64,000 nt of DNA from Daucus carota subsp. sativus (taxonomy: Eukaryota; Streptophyta; Magnoliopsida; Apiales; Apiaceae): the NCBI RefSeq assembly GCF_001625215.2, contig NC_030385.2, positions 7,557,135-7,621,134 of the forward strand. The letters run 5' to 3'. The translations under genes were made by a program, and so were the position numbers. Positions 3,501-51,185 of this stretch are shown here, in pieces (within the stretch, counting starts at the first letter, position 1; each line of letters begins with the position of its first letter). The notes beneath the pieces were generated by a model, which was not told the origin of the DNA, searched no databases, and was given only the letters and a program-made list of their open reading frames with translations.

Positions 3501-5459
3501 ATATATATTGCCTGATTCTCTACTCCTACCTGATGCATTTTCCCATTTCAGGTATGTTTCTTCCGACAGTTTTTTAGGTCTGTTGGCAAGTCTGACTATT
3601 TAACTATGCGCCATGGATTTATCTCCGTAAGTTCTATATAATATATAAATTCTGTCAAACTGTATCGAGTTTTTAATAAACTAATTTTGACTTTTTATTG
3701 CTCTTATAGGTTCATTTATCACCTGGAACAAAGTTTGATTTTCAAAAGTATATCAAAAGGTCTTTAGAAGATGACTTCAAGGTTATAGTGGGAATCAGGT
3801 ATACTTCAGTCACACTATAAACATATGAATATGATGCCAACTATCTTGTGCACCTCTTTTTTCTGAGCATATATATCCATTTAGACTAAAGTATAACATG
3901 ATTTTTCAGTCCCGTCTTATGGACTTCAGCAGTCATCTATCTGACTCTTAACGTTGAAGGTACATTAGCTCTTCTACATAATGTTTATTTCTACCTGAAA
4001 GTTATATGTAATTTAGAGTTGTACTTTGAACAATTTGAATATGCCGAAGTTATGTTTATTTAACCTTCGCAGGATGGCAAGCTATGTTTTGGCTTTCAGT
4101 CCTGCCGCTAGTTGTAAGAATTTTAAGTTGCATAAATATTCATCATTGTATTTAAAGAAAAACGTTAGAGCAATTTATTTACCGCTGAGTTGCTTCACTG
4201 AAGGTAATTTTATTAGTTGGAACAAAGCTCCAAGCAATTATATCGCAGATGGCCATCGAAATCACGGAAAGACATGCTGTAGTACAAGGCATACCTTTAG
4301 TCCAAGTATCTGACCGACATTTTTGGTTTAGTTGGCCTCGTCTAGTTCTCCACCTCATTCATCTCACACTCTTTGAGGTCACTTCTACTTCCTTTTTGAA
4401 ATTCTCTAAGTATTAATGTCTTGTCAATATTCTAGCTTCCTGTATCAAGCAGCAAACTACAAAGCGTTATGAAGGTCTATGCAAGTTGTCATAATGCTTT
4501 CATAAATTTTCTAACTGATGCTATTATTATTTATTCCTTCCCAGAACGCGTTTGAGATAACATACTTCTTCTGGATATGGGTAATGAAGCAATTTTCCCC
4601 TTGAACTTTTCTTCTTCATACACTTGTGTACTCTCAGTGAGAAGTGATATTTTCTTGATGCAGTACGAGTTCGGGTTGCATTCTTGCTTTCATAGTCACA
4701 TGATTTTTCAGTATCTGAGACTTTGCATCGGGTAGGTCTTATTGTAAATCATATTTACCAAAAGATTCCAGAGGAAACTACTGCCTTCCGTGTCCTGTTA
4801 CCATATGCTTATTAGAAAAATCCCATGTTCTTTTCAGAACGGCGAGTGCTATAACATAAAGTCATGTCTATGCATTATGCAATTATTACAATAAACAAAA
4901 TTACTTGGACATTTCAAAATAATTAGCATTTTGCAGGGTTGCAGTTTTGGTTTTATGCAGCTATATTACGCTCCCATTGTATGCCCTGGTCACACAGGTA
5001 TTTTGGTTTATGCTACTACCATCTTATTAGGATTCCCTTCTCTGAACAAAGTTCCATTGGCCATATTATATGCTGAAAAGAGTTATTAGCGACACATTAT
5101 ACTTGTGTTTGCCATTGGCCAGTTGTTATGGTTTTCCTTTCTCAATATATAGTTCAAGGATGATTCGCTTGGACACATTATACAGATTAACACCGAATTT
5201 AACCAATTCCTTTTTCTTTCTTTTTCCTCTTATCCCCTTGTGGGAATTTCAGATGGGATCAACCATGAAGAAGTCTATTTTTGATGAGCAAACTAACAAA
5301 GCACTAATGTCATGGGCCAAACACGCAGCAAAGAAGAAGGTTGATGGAAAGCCAGGACCAATTGCTACTCATAATCCACACAGTCCGAGTGGTTCACCTC
5401 AAGATTCCCCATCTCATCCACATTCACGTAAAGTACATGGTTTTCAGACAACCCCATAG
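580..5459 (+). CDS. MLO-like seven-transmembrane protein, 15 exons, 523 aa
   Basis: Spliced from 15 exons: 580-708, 1390-1447, 1556-1878, 2598-2714, 2832-2886, 3005-3093, 3552-3626, 3710-3798, 3910-3959, 4073-4113, 4204-4377, 4545-4580, 4664-4731, 4937-4997, 5253-5459. All junctions are GT..AG and keep frame, giving 523 residues, a usual MLO length. Family signatures read directly: TPTWAV near the N terminus, [13 protein letters not shown] (TM2), the QLHIFIF segment (TM3), [34 protein letters not shown] in the second cytoplasmic loop, [23 protein letters not shown], and [15 protein letters not shown] before the tail. The C-terminal tail has a basic helix with Trp ([13 protein letters not shown]), the usual calmodulin-binding site. 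MLO proteins are plasma-membrane, calmodulin-regulated proteins; some clades act in powdery mildew susceptibility, others in pollen tube or root signalling. Wording of the middle loops recalls Arabidopsis MLO5/7/8/9/10 rather than the mildew clade, but I could not build a tree. Odd: a Gly/His-rich insertion in the first extracellular loop (entered separately). Exon 11 could be mis-set at the later AG (4219), which breaks frame; 4204 keeps it. Confidence 0.95.
1711..1804 (+). repeat. Coding G/C-skewed minisatellite: Gly/His/Gln-rich loop of the MLO protein
   Basis: Short repeats of the type GGTGGCCATGGCGGGGGT and a GGACAGGGC variant lie within exon 3 of the MLO gene. In frame they encode runs such as [16 protein letters not shown]. 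The tract is flanked by normal loop sequence ([13 protein letters not shown] before; [17 protein letters not shown] and KCHD after), and reading frame is kept on both sides, so it is a true in-frame low-complexity insertion between TM2 and TM3, on the extracellular side. This loop varies in length in the family; this composition is unusual. Replication slippage is the likely origin, and length polymorphism between individuals is likely. Confidence 0.85.
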
Positions 5460-11848: not shown

Positions 11849-14596
11849 ATGACGCTGTTCAAACTCCTTATGGTCATACACATTCTGCTCAAACTCACCA
11901 ATGTTTCTTCCCAACAAGCTGAATTCGTCTACACCGGCTTCCAGCCCAAAGACATGACCCTCGAGGGAGCGGCTACGTTTACCAGAAACGGACTCATCAA
12001 GCTCAGCAACGACAGCAAGCAACACTCCCACGCGTTCCATTCCACCCCAATCAAATTCAGAAAAAACAACGCTTCGTCGGTGCCCTCGTTCTCCACCACT
12101 TTCGCGTATTCCATAGTCTCGGAATACCCCAAAATCAGTAGCCACGGAATGACCTTCTTTATTGCACCCACCACGCCTTTCCCGGATGCTCCGCCTGTGT
12201 ATTTTGGCCTTTACAGTCCCCTGACAATGGGGAACGCCACGAATCATGTTTTCGATGTGGAGATTGATACGTTGCAGAATGATGAGTTTGGTGACATTGA
12301 TGGGAATCATATGGGGATTAATATCAATGGATTATTCTCGAATGCCTCGCATTCTGGAGGATATTATAGGGATGATACAGGGGAGTTCTTGAATTTGTCC
12401 CTGATTAATACGCCTCGGCCTATGCAGGTTTGGGTTGAGTATAGTGGCGCCAAGAAGCGGGTTGAGGTCACACTAGCTCCCCAAGGTATAGGCAAGCCCA
12501 AGAAACCGCTCATGTCGTTAGATTATGATCTTGATCAGGTGATCGATGAGGAAATGTATGTGGGTTTTTCTTGTGGGACTGGGCCAAGAACTATTTCACT
12601 GCACTATGTTCTGGGATGGAGCTTTGTGGTCAATGGTAAGGCTGCAGAGCTTGACCTGTCAAAGCTCCCAAAGCTTCCTCGAATTGGGCCTAAGAAGAAA
12701 TCAAAATTCTTGACTATTGGGTTGCCAGTGATTTTGGTGACTGTGATGGTAATGATCGTTTCGGGGATAGTTTATTATGTAAGGAGAAAGAAGAAATTCG
12801 CGGAGGTTCTGGAAGATTGGGAGCTTGAGTATGGTCCTCACAGGTTCAAGTACAAGGATTTGTATGTGGCTACTAAAGGTTTTAAAGACAAGGATTTACT
12901 GGGGGTAGGGGGTTTTGGTAAGGTTTACAGAGGTGTGTTACCAAACTCCAAAGTTGAGATTGCCGTGAAGAAGGTGTCCCATGAATCAAGACAAGGAATC
13001 AGAGAATTCATTTCTGAGATTGTTAGTATTGGGAGGCTCAGGCATCGAAACATAGTCCCCCTCTTGGGGTACTGTCGACGAAAGAGTGAATTGCTTCTGG
13101 TTTATGATTTTATGCCGAATGGGAGCTTGGATAAGGCCCTTCACGACCAACCAAAATTAAGGCTGAATTGGAGGCAGAGATTTCAGGTCATAAAGGGTGT
13201 GGCCTCAGGGCTGAACTACCTACATCAAGATTGGGAGCAGGTGGTCATTCATAGGGATGTTAAGGCTAGCAATGTTTTATTAGATCATGAATTAAATGGA
13301 AGATTAGGAGACTTTGGGCTAGCAAGACTGTATGATCATGGAACAGACCCTCAAACAACCCGTGTAGTTGGAACTATCGGTTATTTAGCCCCAGAACATC
13401 ACAGAACCGGCAAGGCCACAACTAGTACTGATGTCTATGCTTTCGGTGCATTTTTGCTAGAGGTCACTTGTGGCAAAAGGCCAATATATGTACAGCCCGG
13501 TGCAGAAGACGTGATTCTGGTTGATTGGGTGTGCTCATGTTGGAATCACGGTGACATTGTTGCTTCAGTGGATCCGAATCTAGGGATTTTTGATTATGTG
13601 AAGGCGGAAGTGGAGTTGGTTCTGAAACTTGGCCTAATGTGTTGCAACACGGAGCCTTCAGCCAGGCCTACGATGCAACAAGTTGTGCAATACTTGGAAG
13701 GTAGGGGTGTCAAACGGATAATTCGGATACGGATCTGCCTGTATCCGGATCCGAATCCGAATCCGAAAATCCATATCCGTATCCGAATCCGAATCCGAAA
13801 TTTTTTAAAGGATGATATCCGAATCCGGATCCGACGGATATTATCCGAATTCGGATAATATCCGGATCCGAATCTGATTTTTAATCAGAATTTTTATTTT
13901 TCTATTAAAATTTCTAAAAAATCATAAAAATAGTAAAAATTAAAAATTAATTTTTAAAAACTGAGTAAAAAAATTAAAATCACTAAAGAAGGTTTATATT
14001 AATATAAAAATTAATTCATATTTATCTTTCAATATAAATTTGTTATCTTTAGAATATTAAACTCAAATAAAATTATGATATATGTCTATAATATTTTAAA
14101 ATTACAAAAAAAATTATATAAATATATTATTTTATGTATACATATATAAATATACACATTATATAGTTATTGAATATATTATTTTATGTATATATATTAT
14201 ATACATATATAATATTTAATATCATATATATTTAATTTCGGATTCGGATATTATCGGATACGAATATGCCTATATCCGTATCCGTATCCGGAATTGTCGG
14301 ATTCGGATGCGGATAATATCCGCTTTGTCTCGGATACGGATAATATCCACTTTATCTCGGATACGAATGCGAATTTTTCGGACGGGTATCGGATTTTTCG
14401 GACTTTTTTGACAGCCCTATTGGAAGGTCATGCGCCGCTCCCAGAATTATCAGCAGTGATCATATCTTCGGCTGGCTTGGCATTTGAACCATTTTCTAAC
14501 ATTGCCATGTCAAATTATTCATCATCTTCTGCGGGAAAACCTTATTCTCAACCAGTTTCACTGATTGCAGATTCGATATTCTCTGGTGGTAGATGA
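11849..14596 (+). CDS. L-type lectin-domain receptor kinase, coding sequence interrupted by a hAT MITE
   Basis: Plasma-membrane receptor kinase of the LecRK family (LecRK-IV-like by wording), which senses extracellular signals in immunity or development. The uninterrupted reading frame from ATG 11849 gives: signal peptide 1-21; legume-lectin domain about 23-265 (FVYTGF, SFSTTFAYSIV, GMTFFIAPT, DVEIDTLQNDEFGDIDGNHMGI); transmembrane helix about 287-311 followed by basic RRKKK; kinase about 347-617 with GVGGFG (352-357), Lys374 in IAVKK, HRD (468-470) in IHRDVKASN, DFG (488-490), and LAPE (513-516). It is an RD kinase with all catalytic residues present. At residue 617 a 718-bp MITE (13702-14419) interrupts the frame. 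Read straight through, 52 element-encoded residues follow and the frame stops at 13858 (669 aa). Removal of the element as an intron (13701-14426) restores GHAPLPELS...FSGGR and a stop at 14596, giving 673 aa; use of the acceptor at 14414 gives 677 aa. The kinase core is whole in every case. The promoter region has TATATATTT near 11764. Confidence 0.9.
13694..14427. mobile_element. hAT-type MITE (718 bp) with 8-bp target duplication, inside the LecRK gene
   Basis: Element 13702-14419. Ends TAGGGGTGTCAAA and TTTGACAGCCCTA are inverted repeats with one mismatch. The 8-bp duplication TTGGAAGG is at 13694-13701 and 14420-14427, as expected for hAT transposition. Subterminal regions are full of short palindromic motifs built on GGATCCG, GGATAC and ATATCCG. 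The AT-rich middle has no transposase. The two copies of the duplication are identical, which suggests a fairly recent insertion. A second family member lies at 35739-36461. Confidence 0.93.
13699..13706 (+). promoter_or_regulatory. Potential splice donor made by the MITE insertion
   Basis: AG followed by GTAGGG: the G of GT is the last base of the target duplication and the T is the first base of the element. It matches the plant 5' splice consensus at -2, -1, +1 to +3 and +5. Splicing from here to AG at 14425-14426 or at 14413-14414 keeps the frame. Not shown to be used; this is read from sequence only. Confidence 0.6.
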
Positions 14597-15964
14597 ACTA
14601 CAAGTTTCAGCTTGTGTTGTAGTTGTTTTTTAGTTACTCTATTATTTAGGGATGCAGAAATGCTATCTCCATGTTCTTATGTATGGATCGATGTCGCAGT
14701 ATGCTGTATTTCCTTTACTTCATAATAAGTTTTTAGTTCTTATGTCAAGCTTGTAAAAAATCAAACACTGAAATTAGTAGCACAAACACATGTTAAAGGC
14801 TAATACTGATAATCACATAACTTCTGCTGTGTCTTTCTTTTACACTTCTCACACTTCTCTTTTTTCTTAATATTGTGTCTAAGAATTTCAAAGTTTGTTG
14901 CATAATGAATACACACTTCAAGACTTCTTATTGCATGTCTTCTCTGGAGGTTGAAAAAATCTAGTACTAGCAGTCTAGCAGACATTCAAAGAACGGCCCA
15001 CCTGCCCGTTTCCCATTTAGTCATCTTTGAGTTAAATTTCAGTGAATATTTATGTAGGAAAAATGTGGCTGCGCCTTCTTGCTTTCAAGATTATATTCAT
15101 CACATTTTTTTATCTTCTACTCCCTCCGATTTAAAATACAGATACTTTTTTCACGTATTTTTAAATCTTTTGACCACAATACATGTTTAAAATCATTGTT
15201 TTCGAATTTTTATTTTTTAAGTAATAATATCAATCATATATTTTTATTCAGAATTTTTTAAAAAAAAAATAATGATTTTTAACATATAGTCAATGGACTT
15301 AAAAATGCTTGCAAAAAAATCAAACGACTTATATTTCAAAACAGAGATAGTATACTGTTAACTAATTCTTGACTTAGAGATTATAATCTTCATCACAGCT
15401 TATTTTTGAAAAATAACACAGAAAAATTTACTTTTTTTTAGAATAAGTTCTTACTTTTATCTAAATAACAAATATACAACATCTTCTTGATATTTATGTT
15501 CAAAATAATTATAAAAATATTTATTTAAAAAAAATTAAGTGCTTAATTTTTTTAAAAAAAGAACTTTATCCAAACGGGCGTTTGCTTGACAACTTACTGA
15601 TAACTTGCTTTTAGGCGGATAAATCAAAATATTAATAAACTTTTTCTCATTAGAAAAAGATAAAATAAAATTTTAAATTAATTACATATATTTAAATATC
15701 TCCATTTTATTAAAAATCGTCAGGTGATATAACAAAAAGACATTTCGGTTTATTTTAAAATCAAAAAAGTTAAATTGAATAACAGAAAAAAAAAATTGCA
15801 TATTCTATCAATTAGCTAAAAAGGATTTTTATATAACAAAAATTGGAAATTTTAGTTACAAAATTAAGGAAGGAACGAAAAACAAAAGCAAGAATTTTAT
15901 GGATAAAAGGGTGACTAGAAGCTAGGGTTTTAGAGCAGAGCAAAAGCAAAGAGGTTGAAATTGA
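14597..15964. other. Spacer between LecRK and OEP21
   Basis: Contains the LecRK 3' flank, one Stowaway-like MITE (entered separately) and AT-rich, low-complexity sequence. No supported gene. Confidence 0.4.
15120..15350. mobile_element. Stowaway-like MITE, diverged
   Basis: Left end CTCCCTCCGATTTAAAATA after TA; right end TATTTCAAAACAGAGATAG before TA. The ends are imperfect inverted repeats, typical of an older Tc1/mariner-derived Stowaway copy. Confidence 0.65.
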
Positions 15965-21257: not shown

Positions 21258-21448
21258 TTTGGTGAAATTTTTTTGGTGGATCGCGTTTGTAAAAACATTT
21301 TCATGTCCAAATTCTAAAGCTATTTCTAAATTCCAACTCCCTTGACTGTCTATCCGACCCTTCACACCTTCCACACTTTCTCCAGCTCCTACTCTCTTTA
21401 ATTCATCAAACACACCCGCTCCCTTGTTATTCTCTTCACTTATTCTTC

Positions 21449-22015
21449 ATGACTCTCCATCTCCATCCTCATCCCAGAAGGTTCCTCACCACCACCGACT
21501 CGCCGCCGGACTCCACTTCCCCCGAATCCGCCGCCTCCGACTTCATCGTCATCCTCGCCGCTCTCCTCTGCGCCATCGTCTGTCTGCTCGGCCTCATAGC
21601 CGTCGCTCGCTGCGCCTGGATTCGCCGCTTCTCCGGCAGAATCACCGGGAATTCACCTCCTCTACCTCATCTCCATCCAAACAAAGGCCTCACCAACAAA
21701 ATTCTCAAAAAAATCCCCAAAATCACGTACTCCGCCGATGACGCCGGAAAGTACTTCGACTGCGCGATTTGCTTGACGGAGTTCGTCGCCGGAGATGTGC
21801 TCCGAGCGTTGCCGCAGTGCGGCCACGGATTCCACGCCGGATGTATAGACACGTGGCTGAAATCTCATTCGTCGTGTCCGTCGTGTAGGAAGATACTTGT
21901 GGATAGTAGTTGCCGGAAATGTAGTCAATTGACGGCGGCGGAGATGGAGATCACAGTCGCCGGAGTTGACACGGCGGCGCCGAGACGAGATGACACGTAT
22001 CGGTTCTTGCCTTAG
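21449..22015 (+). CDS. RING-H2 finger E3 ubiquitin ligase of the ATL family (ATL8/ATL80-like), 188 aa
   Basis: Single-exon gene, as is normal for ATLs. One N-terminal transmembrane helix (residues about 31-57), a basic segment, the GLD-like region KGLTNKILKKIPK (79-91), and a canonical RING-H2: C105-x2-C108-x15-C124-x-H126-x2-H129-x2-C132-x10-C143-x2-C146, with the ATL hallmark Pro122 before the third cysteine and Trp136 after the sixth ligand. ATL proteins are membrane-anchored ubiquitin ligases that act with E2 enzymes in defence, carbon/nitrogen and hormone responses. Length and the short tail fit the ATL8/ATL78/ATL79/ATL80 group. The coding sequence is much richer in G+C than its surroundings. 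A frame-shifted ORF begins at 21424 but lacks the RING, so the start at 21449 is preferred. Confidence 0.93.
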   Translation: MTLHLHPHPRRFLTTTDSPPDSTSPESAASDFIVILAALLCAIVCLLGLIAVARCAWIRRFSGRITGNSPPLPHLHPNKGLTNKILKKIPKITYSADDAGKYFDCAICLTEFVAGDVLRALPQCGHGFHAGCIDTWLKSHSSCPSCRKILVDSSCRKCSQLTAAEMEITVAGVDTAAPRRDDTYRFLP

Positions 22016-26310: not shown

Positions 26311-29300
26311 TCACTCTGTTTTTGCAGCATCGACTTGCCTTGCACCGATAGCAAAGAACTCTGTAATAACTTCCAGGGGCATGCCTTTGGTTTCTGGAAC
26401 CTTTACATAGACGAAGATCCAAGAAATGACACATACAATGGCATATATGCCAAAGACGCCAGCTAGTCCAATCGAAGTGAGCATCACAGGCAACGTGTAG
26501 GTCACAATGATATCACAGATCCAGTACACAAGAGCACATATGGCAATGCAAAGACCTCTAACTCTTGTAGGGAATATTTCTGAGCAGAGGATATTCGGGA
26601 TCGGTCCATAACCCATGACGAAGCAGCAGAAATAGATTATGACACAGATGGTCGATATGATTGCATGAAGAACGGTACCCATGTTGACCACATTACCGAT
26701 GACTAGGACAACAAGTGAAACTATCAGCACAGGGATGGTCGTGAGCAGCAATGTCCTTCATCAAGTAGTATAACAGCACATTAATATCGAAATCACAAAG
26801 ATAAAAAAACAAAGAGCACCTACTTAAGAATTCAATATGAAATATAGCAAGCGTGTGACAGACTCGCAATGAATTCGCTTTGACAAGGTACATCAGCTTC
26901 TAACAAGAAATTTAATAGTAAAAAAGGAGGGATCAGGACAACCATATTTTTGGTTACAATATGTAAAATGGAACAATCTGGCATTATTTTTAACTCATTG
27001 CTCTATATACAAGTTTATAGTACAAGAAGTAAGTGTTTGCTTGTCTCAAGGTCTACAGGAAAAACTGAAAACCAAAATGATTCAAATTAAAAGCTAAATT
27101 TATGGTAGTAACATCTTTAAACACAAGAAAATATAATACATAGATGAGGTATTTGATAGCCTTGCAGTATATATTCGAAGAACTACTTATGCAACTAATA
27201 GTGGCTTGTTGTGCATAACATTATTATACAACACGTCAAAGAATTCAACACTTTGAGCATTCACCACTAACGCCTGCCTTCATTTATTAGATAATAAGCA
27301 ATAGAAATCTCTATGTGATGGTTCTTCCTCCGGACATGCAGAACTATATATAATTAATAGGGAATTTCTCAATGGTACACTTTTAGTTTTGACTGTCAAA
27401 AACATTTTGCGTACCATTTGGAAAAGCCAAAACTAGAAGTGTACCATTGAGAATTTCCCTAATTAATATATAGCGACAAAAGCAACATTCAGAGTTATAT
27501 GAATATTTAAAACAACAATCTACCAAAATGATTCTCATGATGCCGACGCTCATAGAGCATTCCATTAACTATTTACTTAGATCAAAGATGTATGGGGACG
27601 ATTATACTACATGTATATTACTATATTAAGTTCTAATCAACTTATGCATACATAAACACAAACACATACAAAGATCTATAAACTTAGATTAACATGTTGA
27701 TTATTTCTGATTTTGAGCAGGTTCAAAATTTTTTTTCTTACTTTTCATTTTAATTTTTGATTGACTTTTGCACTTGTCGGCCGACTAGTCGACCGAATAG
27801 TCGATAAGTCGATCGATTAGTCGACCAAGTCGACCGACTAGTCGACAATTCACAAGTCGACCTCTCCAGTCGATTTCTCTCAACCCGACTAGTCGAGCGC
27901 CGTGACAACAATGCCGCAAATTATTAATTTCCAAAATACCTATGTCCCTTTAAGGAGTTTATTATGCAGGGCATGAGAGAAAATGAGAAACCCAAAACCA
28001 TATCACTAGATTTCCCTCTTACTAATTGTGCATACGAGGTAGACAAAGTCCAAGAAACAAAGTTGTGATTACCTAGAAGTAAAAAATTGATATAACAGAA
28101 GTAGTATCAAATTTAACAATTACTGGAAACTCAACAAGTTTCTAATGCATTTTACATATGCAACATTTTCCATATTCTGCTATCTAGTTTTCTAAACATT
28201 TTAAAATTAACTTCAAGCCATTAAAGGTTAGAGCATAAAGAACAGTAGTTTCACGGTTAAATTAAAACAAATAAGTAACTAACCTTCTGCCAGCAACATC
28301 AACAAATCTCATTGCTACAGCTATGCAAGGAAGCATTAACAAGGTTGTAAATGCACTAATGAGGAAAGATGCAGACTCAGAACCAATTCCCAAGCTGGAA
28401 AGAAGAACTTCAACGCCTGCTTGCTCAAGGATTTGCGGAGTGTAGTACATCACCCCATTAATGCCAGAAAACTGCATAATCATTTTAACACACATAAGAA
28501 TCAAAAAAGCAGATATGCTCAATGGATGAGTTGAAGCGCTGATAATGACAAGAAGGGAAACCCATTTCAGGTAAATGTAGAGAATCGCACTATCAGTCTG
28601 TCAATATTATCCACCTATAGTAATCACATGGTTCACAGAAGAAGATAGCATAGTATCTTGAAAATGGATTGCAGGATCATACATTCTGAATCAGTGGGTA
28701 TGATTAAGAATATAAAAGAAAAGTGAGCAATACGATCTAATTGAACATAGCAAGACAGGAAATTTCCAAGTAACATACAGAACTACATTCAGAAAATAGT
28801 AGTTACTGATTCAGTAGCTGGTCAATTTTACCTAGTGAAAAGAAAAAGGATTTACACACACAAAACTTTTGTAGCGGACAAGTGAGTCTGGCAGTCCACT
28901 CAAATAATTAAGTAGAAGAGGAACAAAACTTACTAAAAGTTCATGATAAATGACATAAGGATTCATAAAAAGGATTTCAATACCTGTTGAAGGATTTGAA
29001 TCCCAACGCCAACAATCAGTGCACGCCTGACTCCTGGTTCTAGAAGAGCACTCCAACCCACCCCTTGAGAAACAGTTTCAGATGGATGAACCATTGCTGG
29101 TCCAACTGGATGCTGATTCATAAGGTCCTTTGAATAGAGAGCAGTTTGGCTTACAAGAGCAGCAGCCTGTATGTAGTCATTCTCTGGATTAATCTCCCCA
29201 CCAGGAAGTGAAACAATAGACCCACGCCTGGACCCAGCAATCCCTTCCTCATGCAGATAGATCCTGTTGAAACCTCCTTCTTTCTTTCCATCTTCACCTT

Positions 29301-31443
29301 GTCTTTCTGACCATTTCCATGCCAATTGCCAGCCACCCCCAATGCCCATACTCTCTTCTCCTGTATTTCCTTTCAAGAGACTGCTATTGCGCCTAACACC
29401 AAGGACACTGCCATTTGAACGTGGAGCACCCATGTCCTTATCCATGCTTGTTGTTTGACGTGAAATCAATGGGCTCTGCAAGTTATCATCGGAGTCTTCT
29501 CCACCAGCATCTGTGGTATAATCTTCACCTTCTCTCTGCAGGCTCTCTTCATCCCACTGTTCGTGTTTAGCATGAGGATCAGCCATGCTAAACATGCTGC
29601 CAAAATTTGGAAACAGCATGCTTCGCATACTTCCTGTTTCGGGAAGTTTCTCATGGACACTGCCAAAGAGAGTCACAATAGGATCCACAAGGGGCATACC
29701 CTGGTTTACAAGGCTTCCATTGCGCGATGCAAGACCAATAGCACTTTGTCCTGTGACAGGTTTGGCAACCCATGAGAGTCCTGCTTCAGGTCCGTACAAT
29801 TTGATTTGCTCTTTTTCTGCCTCTGGATCTTGATCCTCAGTAAGGTCATTGACTGGGCCTATAATGTATTCTTCAAAGGATGCATCACCACCAACTGCCA
29901 GACCTTCAACTAGCAAAGCCATCTCAGCTGTGAACAAAAGAAGCAACAAAAACTTTAGCAATTCTGTCAAAGACGGAGTAAAGGAGCTCAGTGGACAAAC
30001 ATTGGAAATATCTATTTTTAACACATAAATTGAGAAAATGTTTATTAAAATAACAAAGAAAAAATTTCTCTATTTTGCGAATTCATAACTAACATAAATC
30101 AGCGAATATTATACTACAAAACGATGCAATCTATAGTGGTCCTCAATTATATCACTATTTATAAAACTATGTTAGATGATGAGATACTCCAAATAGTATA
30201 TGTCTGCCCATTTGCTTAAAAGCATTGATCATACAGTATTAGAGCGTAATGATATGATACATTACATTAATTTGATGCACCCTTCGAAATTAGAGGGTTT
30301 AAAAGTTGCAATTGTGAACATAATAGAGTATAATAAACTTAAGATTAACTGTGTTAGCATAAAAATTACAGCCAGTTGGGTGTCAAGACTTGTTGCATGA
30401 AAAACTCAGAATATCTTATACATAACTTACAAGGTAGGTCCGGATTATATAGTAAATCCAGATTTTACCGATAAAAAATATCTAATTGTTAAGGAAAAAC
30501 CATATCAATGCAAATTTACCTGAAACATCTTCTCTGCCCCGCAGTTTCTGCAAGACTCGTTTAGCCTCGGTCATCTTTCCTTTACTCACAAGCCATCGAG
30601 GAGATTCAGGTAAATATAGTACAACTAATAAGAAATATACAATAGAGGGGGCAGAAAGAACCCCTAGCATTAATCGCCAACTTGGTGAGTCCATGAGTGA
30701 CATTCCAAAAACCATACAATACGCAAAAAACATTCCAGCAGAACCCAAAAATTGTGGTAGGGTGTTCAACAATCCCCTTATCTCAGATGGAGCAGTCTCA
30801 GAGATATAGAGCGGAACTAAAGTAACAGCCAAACCTACACCGAATCCATCCAAAAGTCTTGCTAAAAGTAGTGTATAAATGTTGGGAGACCATAACATTA
30901 TCAAACCACTGACGAAATAAAACGTGGACGACAGTATAAGCATCGGACGTCGACCAACCCGATCAGATATGGTCCCAGAGCACGTCGTGATTAATGTAGC
31001 ACCAATCAGCGACATGGCAACAACAAGCCCTTCTGCAGTAGTTCCCAAGTTAAGTTCTTTCTTCACGTAAACAACCGCTCCTACAATTCCATATCAAATT
31101 TCATTAGTAACAGTGACCAATCATTACTTAAATCTCCCTAAATCGTGTCTAAATCAACACAAGCAACAAAGAAACATACACAAAACAAAACCCAAAAACA
31201 AAATTCAACATAAGATAAAATATTCCCATAAAAATCAAATCTTGAGTAGAACAAACCAATTTAGAAGAAGAATGAAGAATGAATAAAAACACAAGTAATT
31301 CCAAATATTCAAGATTTACACACAGATGAAGAAATGCAAAAAAGATGATCTTTAACATACATACCTGCAATAGTAGCATTATCCCAACCTTGTAACATGT
31401 TGCCAATTGTGGCAACAATTGCCACCAAAGCAGCTCCGTTCAT
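26311..31443 (-). CDS. Tonoplast monosaccharide transporter (TMT/MSSP), 5 coding exons, 738 aa
   Basis: Minus-strand exons 31443-31365, 31080-30520, 29927-28984, 28471-28284, 26755-26311; all GT..AG and in frame, 738 residues, close to family length. It is an MFS sugar/H+ antiporter of the vacuolar membrane that loads glucose and fructose (and probably sucrose) into the vacuole. Seen: N half starting MNGAALVAIVATIGNMLQGW, DRVGRRP, PLYISETAPSEIRG, PESPRWLVSKG; then the very long hydrophilic loop between TM6 and TM7 unique to TMTs (exon 3, about 300 residues, Ser-, Gly- and Asp-rich: DAGGEDSDDNLQSPLISRQT), followed by FSGINGVMYYTPQIL, VDVAGRR, SEIFPTRVRG and PETKGMPLEVI. The loop holds known phosphorylation targets in relatives. 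A 5' UTR intron (about 31495-31626) and a TATA box are likely. The last intron is 1.5 kb and contains a hairpin MITE and a palindromic minisatellite. Confidence 0.96.
27359..27461. repeat. 103-bp near-perfect hairpin (tiny MITE) in a TMT intron
   Basis: Arms 27359-27395 and 27424-27461: GGGAATTTCTCAATGGTACA and its inverted partner, with few mismatches over about 37 bp, separated by about 28 bp. ATTAATA occurs on both sides and may be the target duplication. Similar hairpin MITEs can yield small RNAs. Confidence 0.8.
27776..27897. repeat. Palindromic CGACTAGTCG minisatellite in a TMT intron
   Basis: A 120-bp tract with repeated GTCGACCGACTAGTCGAC and variants (ATAGTCGATAAGTCGATCGA, AAGTCGACC). 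The unit is itself a palindrome, so the tract can form several cruciforms. It is GC-rich in an AT-rich intron and dense in CpG. Confidence 0.8.
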
Positions 31444-35738: not shown

Positions 35739-36461
35739 TAGGAGTGTGAAACGGATAATTTGGATACAGATCTGCCTATATTCGTATCTGAATCCGGATC
35801 CGAAAATTTATATCCGGATCGGATTTAAATTGAATCCGAAATTTTTTTAAAGGATATATCCGAATCCGGATCTGATAGATATTATTCGGATACAAATAAT
35901 ATCCGGATCCGATAGATATTATTCGGATACAAATAATATCCGGATCCGAATTCGATTTTTTTATTTTTATATTTAAAACTAGAATAAAAAAATAGCAAAA
36001 ATAAAAAATTAATATTTAAAAATTGAGTTATGAATTAAAGTCATTAAAGACGGTTTATATTTGTTCAAAATTAATTTTATTTATCTTTCAATATAAATCT
36101 ATTATCTTTAAATATTAAACTTGAATGATATTATGATATATTCCTATAATATTTTACAGTTATATAAAATATATATAATTATATTATTTTATGAATACAT
36201 ATATAAATAGAAAAACTATAAATTATAGAATAATAATATATAATATATATATAATATTTAAATATCATATATATATAATTTCATATTCGAATATCATCGG
36301 ATACGAATATGCCTATATCCGTATCCGTATCCGGAACTGTCGGATTCGGACGCGGATAATATCCGCTTTATTTCGGATACGGATAATATCCGCTTTATCT
36401 CATGTACGAATGCGGATTATCAGACGGATATCGGATTTTTCGGACTTTTTTGACAACCCTA
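35739..36461. mobile_element. hAT-type MITE, second copy of the family inserted in the LecRK gene
   Basis: Starts TAGGAGTGTGAAACGGATAA and ends TTTTTTGACAACCCTA; subterminal GGATCCG/ATATCCG motifs and the AT-rich core match the element at 13702-14419 in the same orientation. The right half is the best conserved (GATACGAATATGCCTATATC). It carries a local duplication (GATATTATTCGGATACAAAT twice, near 35877 and 35915). The flanks share only TCATA, so the target duplication has decayed. Confidence 0.85.
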
Positions 36462-40710: not shown

Positions 40711-43458
40711 TTAAAAGTGAAAAGGCCAAGATTCTGCTGCTGCTGCAATGTTTGTAGGAGGATCAAGCAACATCTGCTTAAAGCTAGCCCTGTTTAAAGC
40801 CACCACTTCTGAACAAGATGATGATAAAGCCATGGACATATCACAGTCTGAAAACCTGCAATTAGCACCATCCAAGTTTGTAAAAACCAAGGGATTTTCT
40901 GTGTGATTAGTGGGGAGGAGTGGCTGAAACTTGGGAGTTTGTGGGTGATCATTAGAATGAGGTAAGTGGAAATGTAAAAAGTTGGGCTCTGTTTTGCAGA
41001 TTTTAGCAAACGGAGGAGCTTCTTGCTTGTTAAAACAATAGTAATCCTGATGTGATGAGAGGAGAGTGTTGAGGAGTTTAGGGTCTTGTTTGTCTTTGGT
41101 TTCTGTGGGTGAAGAAAAGGATGTTTGGAGTCCATTTAAAACAAGACTGTTTGTCTGGAACTGTGGCACCACAGCTCCAACTGATGATTGGTTGTTTATT
41201 AGAGATTTAAGGTGGCTTTCATGTGTGATATGGCTCATGTTTAGTTGGTTCTGGTTTTGGAGGGACTGCAGTAATGTTTTGTAAGGCTGTAATGCTGGTC
41301 CTGTTTTTATAGTTTGATCAACCAAATGAGACAGACTTGAGTTTGAAGCTTCTTGCATATAGCTGCTTCGCTCTTCGACAGGCAGGACTCCGTTTTTCTT
41401 TTCTCCCAATTTCAGATATATTCTGCAGATCACCCATTCTTCCTGTGAATTCAACCAAATATACAAATTAAATACTCAAAGCTTATCTTACTGTTTTTTA
41501 AATTGAACTTGAAGAATAATTTCGAGTAAAAAGTTGTTAATAACAATGAAAATGACTTAATTTGGACTTTGGAATTGACATGAGGTGCTCAGACACATTA
41601 ACACAAATTATTTTAGGCCAAACAAACGTGAAAAAATTAAAATATGGAAAGTCCGACACTTGAGCACATATTCATGCTGGGTACTTGTAGTCGTGTCATT
41701 GTATCAAAGTAAACAAGCCTATGCACCGTAACAAATGTGTGTTACCTTACAAGTGTGACGACAAGAGAAGTGACCGTCAAGGCGTGTTACCTTACAAGTG
41801 TGACGACAAGAGAAGTGACCGTCAAGGCGATATTCGTGCATGACCCATTTGGTCTTTTCACCTCTGGGAGCTCTGCCTTTGTAGAAAACAAGAGTCTTCT
41901 TCATCCCAACAAGTGCAGGGGCAGCATTGCCAGAATTACCAGTACTGCTGCTGTAAACTTCCTTGTCCTTTCCAGTTGCTTTCCAATAGCCAGCCCCTGT
42001 GGCTCGGTTGGTTCTTAGCCCACTTGGGTATTTCCTGTCTCTCAAGCTATACAAGTACCATTCTCTCTCCCCCATTTTTGCCACATCTATATCATCATCA
42101 TCCACATCATCTCAGTGCAACTATGCATAATTATGTACTACTAGCACTCAGTACTAATCAAGTTTGCCAAAGATAAATAAATTTACTGCCAAGAAGTTGA
42201 ACCTTTTGTTGTTTGTCATGTAGCTGTTAGATCATAATCAAGTATAATATCTGTCAGGTGGTTAATAATGATTTCTGCAAAGGTGAGAAAGATCTTACTC
42301 CCTCCGTCCCAATGAATTGTATACAGTTTCCTCTTTGGGACGTCCCACCAATTGTATACGTTCCAAAAGTAGTAAACTTTTATAATATAAAACATAATTA
42401 CACCCACTACTTTCCTCCACTATCTCCATTCTATAATAATATAAATACTATTACACCCACTACTTTACTCCACTATCTCAAATTTATTATTAAATATAAA
42501 TGGGTCCCACCACTATACCCACTTTTCATCCAACTTTACTCATTTCTTACCCAATTTCTTGATCTCCGTGTCCCAACCATTTGTATACAAATGGCTGGGA
42601 CGGAGGGAGTACTACTTTTCAGCAAAAGTAAAATGGCTGGGGAAAGCTTTTGAGATTTTGCTCATACATACTCCATTAACTATTTCATTATTTGTGTTTG
42701 GCAGAACTAACTACAAAGACCACACATTAAATTTCATCCTTTACGAATAATACTTATAAAAGGGAATATTGGTTCATGATAAATAAGTCCAGTTAATGAT
42801 TAACGAACCTGAATGATAATTCTTATTTCACTGATAGTGTTTGAATTAGCAATTTCCTTGCTTGAAACCCAGTAGATGGATAAATCATATCCTAGCTATA
42901 TTCAGAATTTCCATATTATTCTCATTTATGTTTCTCATTTCACCGACCATCCAAACACCATAAGAATACTGAGAAGAGGGAAAAACACAAATAGTCCTGC
43001 AAACGAAAAATAACATATTTCGACCACAGACGATTGAAAATAGCTATTTTCAACCAGATTCTGACCATCGAAATTAGCCACTTTTGTTGTAGTGGCTGCA
43101 GGAAAAATGGCTAACTTGACATATATTTAAGCACACACCCTACAGTGATTTAGAAAAGATGCATGCTACAGACCTAAATAAGAGAGATGGGTTCTGCATG
43201 ATTGAAAGAAAGAGGAACAAGGAGTGAATAAAAAAGAATAAAATTAGTACCCGGAAGTTCCCAAGGCTCGCATCTGGTGAGATCAACCTCAGAAATGTGC
43301 AGAGCAGAGAGAGAGGAGGCATTGTAGACCTTGGAAGCCAGGTAGAAGGTAATGAGCTCTTCATCAGTAGGGTGAAACCTAAACCCTGGAGGCATCCCTT
43401 GCTCATTCACATCTCCTCCTCCTCTCAGTTCACTTACTATATCTTCTATAGCCAGCAT
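40711..43458 (-). CDS. CUC3: NAC transcription factor, CUP-SHAPED COTYLEDON3-like, 3 exons, 411 or 426 aa
   Basis: Minus-strand exons 43458-43251, 42086-41791 (or to 41746), 41442-40711. The N terminus [11 protein letters not shown] preceding the NAC domain is close to Arabidopsis CUC3 as I recall it (MLAVEDVLSEL). NAC subdomains: [21 protein letters not shown] (21-40), [31 protein letters not shown]...[36 protein letters not shown] and [22 protein letters not shown]. The variable C-terminal activation region is Ser-, Gln- and Asn-rich and ends WPFHF. CUC proteins specify organ boundaries and start meristem formation. I saw no miR164-like site in exon 3, which agrees with CUC3 as opposed to CUC1/CUC2. 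The splice donor of exon 2 is tandemly duplicated (entered separately): the proximal donor gives 411 residues, the distal one adds 15. Intron 1 hosts a Stowaway MITE. Confidence 0.93.
41739..41828 (-). repeat. 45-bp tandem duplication containing the CUC3 exon 2 splice donor
   Basis: Two identical 45-bp units, 41739-41783 and 41784-41828. Each contains, on the minus strand, the last 38 bases of exon 2 (CTTGACGGTCACTTCTCTTG and on to AAG) followed by GTAACAC. Both donors are AAG|GTAACA. 45 bp is 15 codons, so use of the distal donor inserts [15 protein letters not shown] in frame between subdomains D and E of the NAC domain. The units show no differences, so the event is recent, or an assembly error. 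Confidence 0.92.
42298..42609. mobile_element. Stowaway MITE in CUC3 intron 1
   Basis: CTCCCTCCGTCCCAATGAAT at the left, GGCTGGGACGGAGGGAG at the right, bordered by TA. Internally it contains two TTACACCCACTACTTT blocks. 312 bp, non-coding. Confidence 0.87.
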
Positions 43459-49717: not shown

Positions 49718-49725
49718 TATAAAAA
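49718..49725 (+). promoter_or_regulatory. TATA box of the XCP gene
   Basis: TATAAAAA, 77 bp upstream of the chosen start codon at 49795, in the usual plant TATA context followed by CCCC. It implies a transcription start near 49750 and a 5' UTR of about 45 bases. This excludes the upstream in-frame ATG at 49738 as a likely start. Confidence 0.7.
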
Positions 49726-49794
49726 CCCCATGCACTTGTGTTCATTTCATCACCTTCTTCACTCCACACCTCTCTACTAAACCTTCTCATAAAC

Positions 49795-51185
49795 ATGGCA
49801 TTCTCCTCTTCATCCAAACCCTTGCTCTTCCTCTCATTTTTCCTAGCAGCAGCTTTCGCGACCTCAGTGCTGGCTCGTGATTTCTCAATTGTTGGTTATG
49901 CACCGGATGACTTGACATGCATTGACAAACTAATTAATCTATTCGAGTCCTGGCTTGAAAAGCATGGCAAGAGTTATGAAAGCATTGAAGAGAAATTGCA
50001 CAGGTTTGAGATCTTTAAAGATAATTTGATGCATATTGATGAAACAAACAAGAAAAGCAGCAGCTACTGGCTTGGACTCAATGAGTTTGCTGACTTGAGC
50101 CATGAGGAGTTCAAGGACAAGTATTTGGGCCTCAAGGTTGACTTGTCTACAAGGAGAGAGTCCAATCCTGAAGATTTCATCTACAAAGATGTCGTCGATC
50201 TGCCCAAGTCTGTGGACTGGAGAAAGAAAGGAGCTGTCACTAATGTCAAGAACCAAGGCTCATGTGGTAAGTATATTTCAGACATTTGCAAATACCCTGT
50301 TCTTGAAAATTTTGGATTTGTTCTGAAAACATGATCAATTTGCAGGTAGTTGCTGGGCCTTTTCGACAGTAGCTGCAGTAGAGGGAATAAACCAGATTGT
50401 GACTGGAAATTTGACGTCGCTGTCAGAGCAAGAGCTAGTTGATTGTGATACAAGCTTTAACAATGGTTGCAATGGAGGCCTAATGGATTATGCATTTTCC
50501 TTCATTATGTCCAATGGGGGACTTCACAAGGAGGATGACTACCCTTACATCATGGAAGAAGGCACTTGTGATGAGAAAAAGGTATTCTAGCTTAATTAAG
50601 TAGCTTCATATATATTGCTAGCCTGGATTCTTGAAAGCTGCGTGTCAGTAATTCAAATCTTTTCCTGTTCTGTTGTAATGCAGGATGAATTTCAAGTAGT
50701 GACTATCAACGGGTACCATGATGTGCCACGAAACAGTGATGAAAGCTTGATAAAGGCACTTGCAAACCAACCCTTGAGTGTTGCTATTGAGGCTTCTGGC
50801 CGTGACTTCCAGTTCTACAGCGGGGTGAGCAACATTGTGCCTGAAATTTAATTTTATATCATCTCTACATACATATATCCGCTGTCTGGTCTCTGTTAGG
50901 TCTCATGGATGCGTCTTATGCACTGTATACGGCCTTTATACATAGCTAATACGGCCTTGATTTGTGCAGGGTGTGTTTGATGGGCGTTGTGGAACGGAGC
51001 TGGACCATGGAGTGGCTGCAGTGGGATATGGAACAGCAAAGGGAGGGGATTACATAATTGTGAAGAACTCATGGGGTCCCAAATGGGGGGAGAAAGGCTA
51101 CATTAGACTCAAGAGAAATACTGGCAAGCCTGAAGGCAAATGTGGCATCAACAAAATGGCTTCTTATCCCACCAAGTCCAAGTAG
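49795..51185 (+). CDS. XCP: Xylem cysteine peptidase (papain family C1A), 4 exons, 354 aa
   Basis: Exons 49795-50266, 50346-50581, 50684-50824, 50970-51185; all GT..AG and in frame, 354 residues. Signal peptide about 1-27 ([20 protein letters not shown]...), inhibitory I29 prodomain with the ERFNIN pattern ([21 protein letters not shown] and [11 protein letters not shown]), then the mature enzyme from about residue 136 ([13 protein letters not shown]). Catalytic set present: Gln154, Cys160 (in GSCGSCWAFS), His296 ([11 protein letters not shown]), Asn316 (KNSWGPKWG). The GCNGG motif is present; there is no C-terminal granulin domain and no KDEL. The phrases [29 protein letters not shown]-like sequence and the end [12 protein letters not shown] match the XCP1/XCP2 peptidases, which act in vacuoles of tracheary elements during autolysis and are also linked to immunity. 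The ATG at 49795 is chosen because it starts the signal peptide; the upstream one at 49738 would spoil it and sits close to the TATA box. Confidence 0.95.

Follow-up and report, generated by a model that had tools for sequence, protein, structure and literature searches.

Splicing of hAT elements from plant transcripts has long been known from maize Ds, and work by Wessler (1987, 1991), Dennis (1988) and Giroux (1994) reportedly showed Ds and Ds1 spliced from maize exons. Luehrsen and Walbot (1994) are said, going by their title, to have found in maize that an AU-rich stretch can direct splicing or polyadenylation. The papers that we cite by PMC number are represented by excerpts; in these, Ds is described as spliced from RNA and behaving as a mobile intron (PMC2836002), further literature on Ds splicing from exons is cited (PMC2836002, PMC3260210, PMC3443670), and Ds1 donors and acceptors are placed within 35 bp of the element ends (PMC5432752). 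One described model derives introns from transposon insertion, with AG|G flanking both borders (PMC3443670). In some algae and other eukaryotes, transposon-derived introners are common, but the excerpted text of an introner survey reports none in land plants (PMC9860276). Those carrot hAT-like MITEs that lie within introns are frequently retained in transcripts; coding sequence is the listed location of 31 of 3637 hAT-like copies (PMC8227079). The excerpts (including those of PMC3488318, PMC3260210, PMC12595863 and PMC2586383) do not describe the insertion presented below, or its element family, as an intron.

We analysed a window (the whole stretch of DNA examined, 64,000 nucleotides) in which such an element interrupts a lectin receptor kinase (LecRK) gene on carrot chromosome 5 (C5). 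Its parts are as follows, with the evidence for each.

11849–14596, + strand: LecRK gene (L-type lectin receptor kinase, IV-like), interrupted by the element; open reading frame, empty-site reading, Pfam, relatives
13694–13701, + strand: target-site duplication (TSD) TTGGAAGG, left copy; sequence
13702–14419, + strand: non-autonomous hAT element, 718 bp; ends, TSD, subterminal repeats, family copies
14420–14427, + strand: TSD TTGGAAGG, right copy; sequence
14428–14596, + strand: remaining codons of the conserved C-terminal tail, with the stop; identity with relatives, dN/dS
11849–13858, + strand: read-through open reading frame, 669 aa, with the end from codon 618 encoded by the element; frame, identity to database protein P0001

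The two TSD copies are identical at 8/8 bases, and the element ends are TAGGGGTGTCAAA and, on the reverse strand, TAGGGCTGTCAAA, matching each other at 12 of 14 bases. An 8-bp TSD and a short terminal inverted repeat (TIR) that starts T/CAGGG, here TAGGG[G/C]TGTCAAA, place it in the hAT superfamily; subterminal repeats are of ATCCGA type. The core (13881–14236, 356 bp) is 90% AT, and a scan of frames of at least 80 aa found none that was entirely the element's own. When the whole window was scanned for TAGGG-like ends 100–4000 bp apart, with an 8-bp TSD (at most one mismatch) and at least 9/14 matching end bases, this element was the only match. As it also has close copies with their own TSDs elsewhere in the genome, its structure is not chance. 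The perfect TSD and the family copies likewise make an assembly artefact unlikely, and the element, coordinates, TSD and TAGGG ends of the original prediction proved exact to the base.

The family was delineated from 780 first-look candidates, of which 40 places, the LecRK copy among them, were scored; with a second copy in the window the set comprises 41 copies. A TSD with at most one mismatch accompanies 35 of the 41, and 37 begin with TAGGG. Genome-wide, the left-end pattern (at most two mismatches) occurs at 113 places, 100 of which were listed, and a reversed control pattern at 0. The right end GACAGCCCTA is present in 33/41 copies on a looser count and its CAG in 31/41 on a stricter one, and 38/41 have a run of five T near that end. 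Thus the U-tract and CAG, common to most copies, are a property of the family terminal repeat and not a local improvement. Six right-end matches in viral contigs were taken as chance. The second window copy has decayed ends, no clean TSD and CAA in place of CAG:

35739–36461, + strand: second, older family copy; 15.6% from the family consensus

Ac-like hAT elements prefer the target nTnnnnAn. Among the family TSDs, T occupies position 2 in 17/35 and A position 7 in 14/35; the LecRK copy has the T without the A. The last TSD base is G in 13/35 and A in 2/35, and 2/35 end in AGG. Judged against a G content of 17.5%, the G-ending count has P 0.0045, and against 25%, P 0.076, so that this family may form GT at its junctions more often than chance predicts. 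Exact-match left ends follow AGG at three places in the genome, namely the LecRK copy, L030 and L068. In L030 (G000:C6:17100630-17101326) the element lies within a Ptta/En/Spm-like transposase frame (PF03004) and its TSD ends in AGG, a second natural case of the junction geometry seen in LecRK. L068 is a 532-bp family member outside any long frame.

The insertion is young. Two family members on different chromosomes, L015 (G000:C1:29412167-29412886) and L016 (G000:C6:32024782-32025500), are identical over all 718 bases and have different TSDs, which suggests that the family moved very recently. The LecRK copy differs from this pair at 9/718 bases; in an alignment of 37 of the 41 copies (L045, L049, L051 and L053, which are cut or unclear, were excluded) it has the family state at five of the nine and a private base at four. 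Four private changes in 718 bp would correspond to ~0.8 My (0.2–2.0 My, Poisson) at an assumed rate of 7e-9 substitutions per site per year. CpG counts of the two window copies (9 versus 2) also pointed to a younger LecRK copy, and the family alignment was clearer. Over such a time 0.94 changes are expected in 168 bp of tail even without constraint. As about one change would be expected regardless, the open tail is no proof of continued translation, and we rejected the intact tail as a sign of splicing.

With the inserted bases removed, the ancestral coding sequence is one open frame of 673 codons, in agreement with the original description of an otherwise intact LecRK. It encodes a legume-lectin domain (Lectin_legB, 24–274), a transmembrane segment and a kinase domain (Pkinase, 346–614 or 349–616) with HRD and DFG motifs, the domains being assigned by Pfam and the motifs and transmembrane segment by eye on the translation. 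The insertion falls at codon 618, and the Pkinase domain is complete upstream of it, a point absent from the original prediction, whose word 'frame-critical' overstated the site because the kinase domain ends just before the element.

Among the best 120 of 6721 protein matches, the nearest relatives of similar length were a Heracleum protein (75% over 91%) and a carrot paralogue on chromosome 3 (73% over 91%). The original prediction had proposed a search for the empty site in relatives; the site is uninterrupted in the four close relatives examined, namely these two and two assembled fragments that are probably from Apiaceae. In a comparison of 10 hand-picked relatives out of 271 fetched proteins, the C-terminal tail of the window gene matches Heracleum at 41/56 residues and the chromosome-3 paralogue at 39/56, and its kinase matches Heracleum at 253/285; the paralogue matches Heracleum at 42/56 in the tail and 244/285 in the kinase. 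Between the window gene and the paralogue, dN/dS is 0.27 in the tail, compared with 0.10 in the kinase and 0.17 in the lectin part. The tail was therefore under constraint over the longer term, and its lack of any sign of decay at this locus is as expected with a young insertion. The paralogue itself lies in two 4842-bp stretches, L055 (G000:C3:37150081-37154922) and L056 (G000:C3:37361436-37366277), which are base-for-base identical and ~211 kb apart, suggesting a very recent duplication or an assembly duplication.

Elsewhere the window holds Mlo family sequence (1492–1938 and 5046–5459), a RING-H2 finger (21293–22015), a sugar transporter on the minus strand (26311–31093), which we take to be of the tonoplast type, and a papain-type protease (49723–50334). 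A NAC-domain frame on the minus strand (41719–42111) has a repeated stretch at its end, which a small tandem duplication could explain, as could read-through into an intron.

The candidate processing signals across the insertion are these.

13698–13706, + strand: candidate 5' splice site AAG|GTAGGG, intron start 13701; matrix score
14403–14415, + strand: candidate 3' splice site CTTTTTTGACAG|C, AG at 14413–14414, borne by the element, 677 aa; matrix score, family
14425–14427, + strand: second AG (14425–14426), in the right TSD copy, exact restoration, 673 aa; matrix score
14550–14571, + strand: competing acceptor within the host tail, its AG ending at 14570, 625 aa; matrix score
14003–14151, + strand: cluster of AATAAA, TATAAA and ATAAAT words, with AATAAA at 14066; scan of five words

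The donor, with the exon ending at 13700, and the two AGs lie where the original prediction had put them, and its three readings were reproduced: 669 aa with read-through, 673 aa with the splice 13700^14427 and 677 aa with 13700^14415, which adds ALLE. Read-through stops at 13856–13858 instead of the ancestral 14594–14596. It does exchange the tail, as had been claimed, and the counts needed correction from 56 and 52 residues to 55 replaced by 51, since residue 618 is G with and without read-through. Splicing to the AG that ends at 14570 gives a fourth in-frame reading of 625 aa.

That all junctions share a phase is true and was presented as noteworthy; it is a consequence of geometry. Since the splice 13700^14427 takes out exactly the inserted bases, it must be in frame, and AG|G at both sides is one event because the TSD ends in AGG, so that the donor and the TSD acceptor are a single coincidence. 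The LecRK coding sequence offers 1972 possible sites for a sense insertion; 498 (25.3%) would have a TSD ending in G, and at all 498 a splice to the element CAG would add 12 nt in frame, in 394 of them without a stop. We thus rejected the in-frame junctions as a striking coincidence. A TSD ending in AGG would arise at 41/1972 sites (2.1%), and a junction donor equally good or better at 26/1972 (1.3%).

We scored the sites with approximate Arabidopsis frequencies, using as a yardstick three introns of neighbouring window genes (donors 4.20–5.67, acceptors 2.18–5.75) that were placed by protein words of their families. The junction donor scores 4.65 and ranks 1 of 152 GT sites between 11849 and 14800, which bears out its earlier description as good. 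The element CAG at 14414 scores 1.82 (rank 13 of 154 AG sites), so the terminal repeat does supply a usable acceptor, as predicted. The TSD acceptor at 14426 scores −1.08 (rank 55/154) and has no pyrimidine tract, and the acceptor ending at 14570, which the original prediction had missed, scores 4.56 and ranks 1/154. By this yardstick we grade the donor as ordinary to good, the CAG as weak to fair and the acceptor for exact restoration as poor. Thus, if the element is spliced, 677 aa is to be expected rather than 673, because the TSD acceptor stands 12 nt behind a better CAG; the exact restoration to 673 aa, put forward earlier as the preferred splice, is the less expected form.

The candidate intron 13701–14414 (714 nt) has GT..AG borders and an AU-rich, plant-like body, and the stretch 14166–14414 contains no other AG, which favours the CAG at its end. 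No YUNAY branch-point word lies 4–59 nt upstream of 14414; within 14301–14426 such words place the branch A only at 60 nt and 3 nt from the CAG. The RNA is predicted to form a strong hairpin (−238.9 kcal/mol, z −12 versus 20 shuffles) in which the candidate splice sites are mostly paired in the TIR stem (unpaired 0.23 and 0.13). The donor is predicted to be unpaired at 0.25–0.43 before the right end is transcribed and at 0.23 afterwards, so that the model indicates no clear block or help during transcription. All eight matches to the five polyadenylation words scanned across 13600–14900 fall within the AU-rich core, and the old LecRK 3' region in that interval has none of the five. The cluster at 14003–14151 could serve early polyadenylation.

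Among the matches listed, protein searches returned solely the read-through form of this locus. Database protein P0001, the one member looked at of a four-member cluster, is identical to the 669-aa read-through and its contig, at 47,556,597 bases, has the same length as C5; we therefore infer that it is the public (DCAR v3) gene model of the locus. No joined-flank protein of the locus was among the best 120 of 788 matches (best identity 83%) or among the 43 matches of a second search with a flank-spanning fragment (best identity 76%). The excerpted genome paper describes the DH1 v3 models as built by MAKER and GeMoMa with DH1 Illumina RNA-seq, mined splice sites and Iso-Seq (PMC10581907). Had the intron been spliced efficiently in a well-expressed gene, these models would probably include it, and the missing joined form may reflect only low expression.

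We consider it slightly better than an even bet that this insertion looks splice-competent without being an established intron, with mostly read-through and/or early polyadenylation and possibly minor 13700^14415 splicing. This explanation starts from what was observed, namely the insertion with its age class, three readings and junction GT, together with the U-tract and CAG of the family end. The element, non-autonomous and from a carrot hAT family with recent activity, landed just behind the LecRK kinase domain, probably in the last one to two million years. The message would then mostly be read into the element, producing a receptor of 669 aa whose kinase is intact and whose basic tail is foreign, and/or the transcript would be polyadenylated within the AU-rich core, and a minor fraction may be spliced to the 677-aa form. 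Read-through is favoured because P0001 is unspliced despite the use of Iso-Seq and of splice sites from RNA-seq in the DH1 v3 annotation, because intronic hAT-like MITEs of carrot are often retained, and because the acceptors rank only 13 and 55 of 154 and both splice sites lie largely in the predicted TIR stem. The gene-model argument depends on P0001 being the DCAR v3 model, and weak expression would give no splice support either way. The likeliest state is thus a modified or weakened LecRK gene. The phrase 'an intron being born' caught the intron-like ends and the AT-rich body of intron-like length and went too far beyond them, since P0001 is read through and the insertion is too young for the tail to testify.

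Splicing could nonetheless be efficient, given a donor that ranks first at a yardstick-level score and a 90% AT core of the kind that plant splicing favours. It is possible, though rather unlikely, that 13701–14414 is a working new intron removed from most transcripts, yielding a 677-aa receptor with ALLE and the full tail. The best GT of the transcript sits at the junction, followed by an AT-rich body of 714 nt that ends in a U-tract and the only AG since 14166, and the 12 added nucleotides are in frame by geometry; excerpted reports describe a four-residue, 12-bp addition in an Aureococcus introner family (PMC9860276) and splicing of maize Ds (PMC2836002). However, the protein record is unspliced, the acceptor falls below all three yardstick acceptors, the nearest usable YUNAY word is 60 nt away and both splice sites are predicted to pair in the TIR stem. 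An intron at 13700^14427 that restores the ancestral 673-aa protein would have AG|G at both sides from the AGG end of the TSD, a geometry described for insertion into AGGT (excerpt of PMC3443670), but its low-ranking acceptor without a pyrimidine tract, behind a better CAG, makes this the least likely splice and very improbable. We regard as unlikely, less so than that restoration and more so than the 677-aa intron, an allele whose function is lowered or abolished by nonsense-mediated decay (NMD), element silencing or tail loss, and which may be private or segregating. The early stop, with NMD conceivable through a 3' UTR longer by ~740 nt, the youth of the insertion, a tail conserved between species and an uninterrupted site in all four relatives would fit such an allele, whereas the complete kinase domain and the existence of a protein record for the locus speak against it.

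On a broader reading, which is highly doubtful, members of this carrot hAT family would be half-made introns that travel with the transposon; they would form the first introner-like family of a land plant, with a live case in the LecRK copy. This reading draws on GACAGCCCTA in 33/41 copies and on the G-ending TSDs (13/35), whose junctions make GTAGGG, so that splicing would always add 12 nt in frame; if true, sense insertions in exons could be tolerated as introns. A recognised host frame was found only at the LecRK copy among the 35 TSD copies, L030 being in a transposase-like frame; this count covers the 35 and leaves outside the six of 41 without a clear TSD, and short exons could be missed, as Pfam was applied to seven of the 35 empty-site frames, excluding the window's own and 27 others, including L043 (104 aa) and L018 (89 aa). 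Because this natural insertion is young and lies in a crop for which 630 resequenced accessions, RNA-seq and Iso-Seq exist (excerpt of PMC10581907), it can be asked directly whether a plant transposon turns into an intron and at what pace, and whether the altered LecRK tail matters.

Compared with known systems, the locus resembles maize Ds/Ds1 in being a non-autonomous hAT element with C/TAGGG ends and an 8-bp TSD, placed in an exon, with proven or candidate splice sites at or near its ends. Ds splicing was shown in RNA, whereas the splice sites of the LecRK element are candidates predicted from sequence. Luehrsen and Walbot (1994) reportedly worked with experimental constructs, whereas this is a natural insertion. 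Unlike Ds1, whose donors are given in the excerpted text as 12, 22 or 33 bp from the terminus (PMC5432752), the LecRK element has its donor at the TSD junction. It shares species and superfamily with the carrot hAT-like MITEs, some of which form MITE-containing isoforms; the examples in the excerpted report keep MITE sequence in the transcript and none is described there as a new intron (PMC8227079). Introners form families of annotated introns that closely resemble one another, whereas LecRK is one host-gene case among 35 TSD copies. Like the Aureococcus introner (Gozashti et al. 2022; excerpt of PMC9860276), the LecRK element has an 8-bp TSD and a candidate splice that would leave 12 added bases and four added residues, made up of 4 bp of element and 8 bp of TSD in Aureococcus and of 5 and 7 in LecRK.
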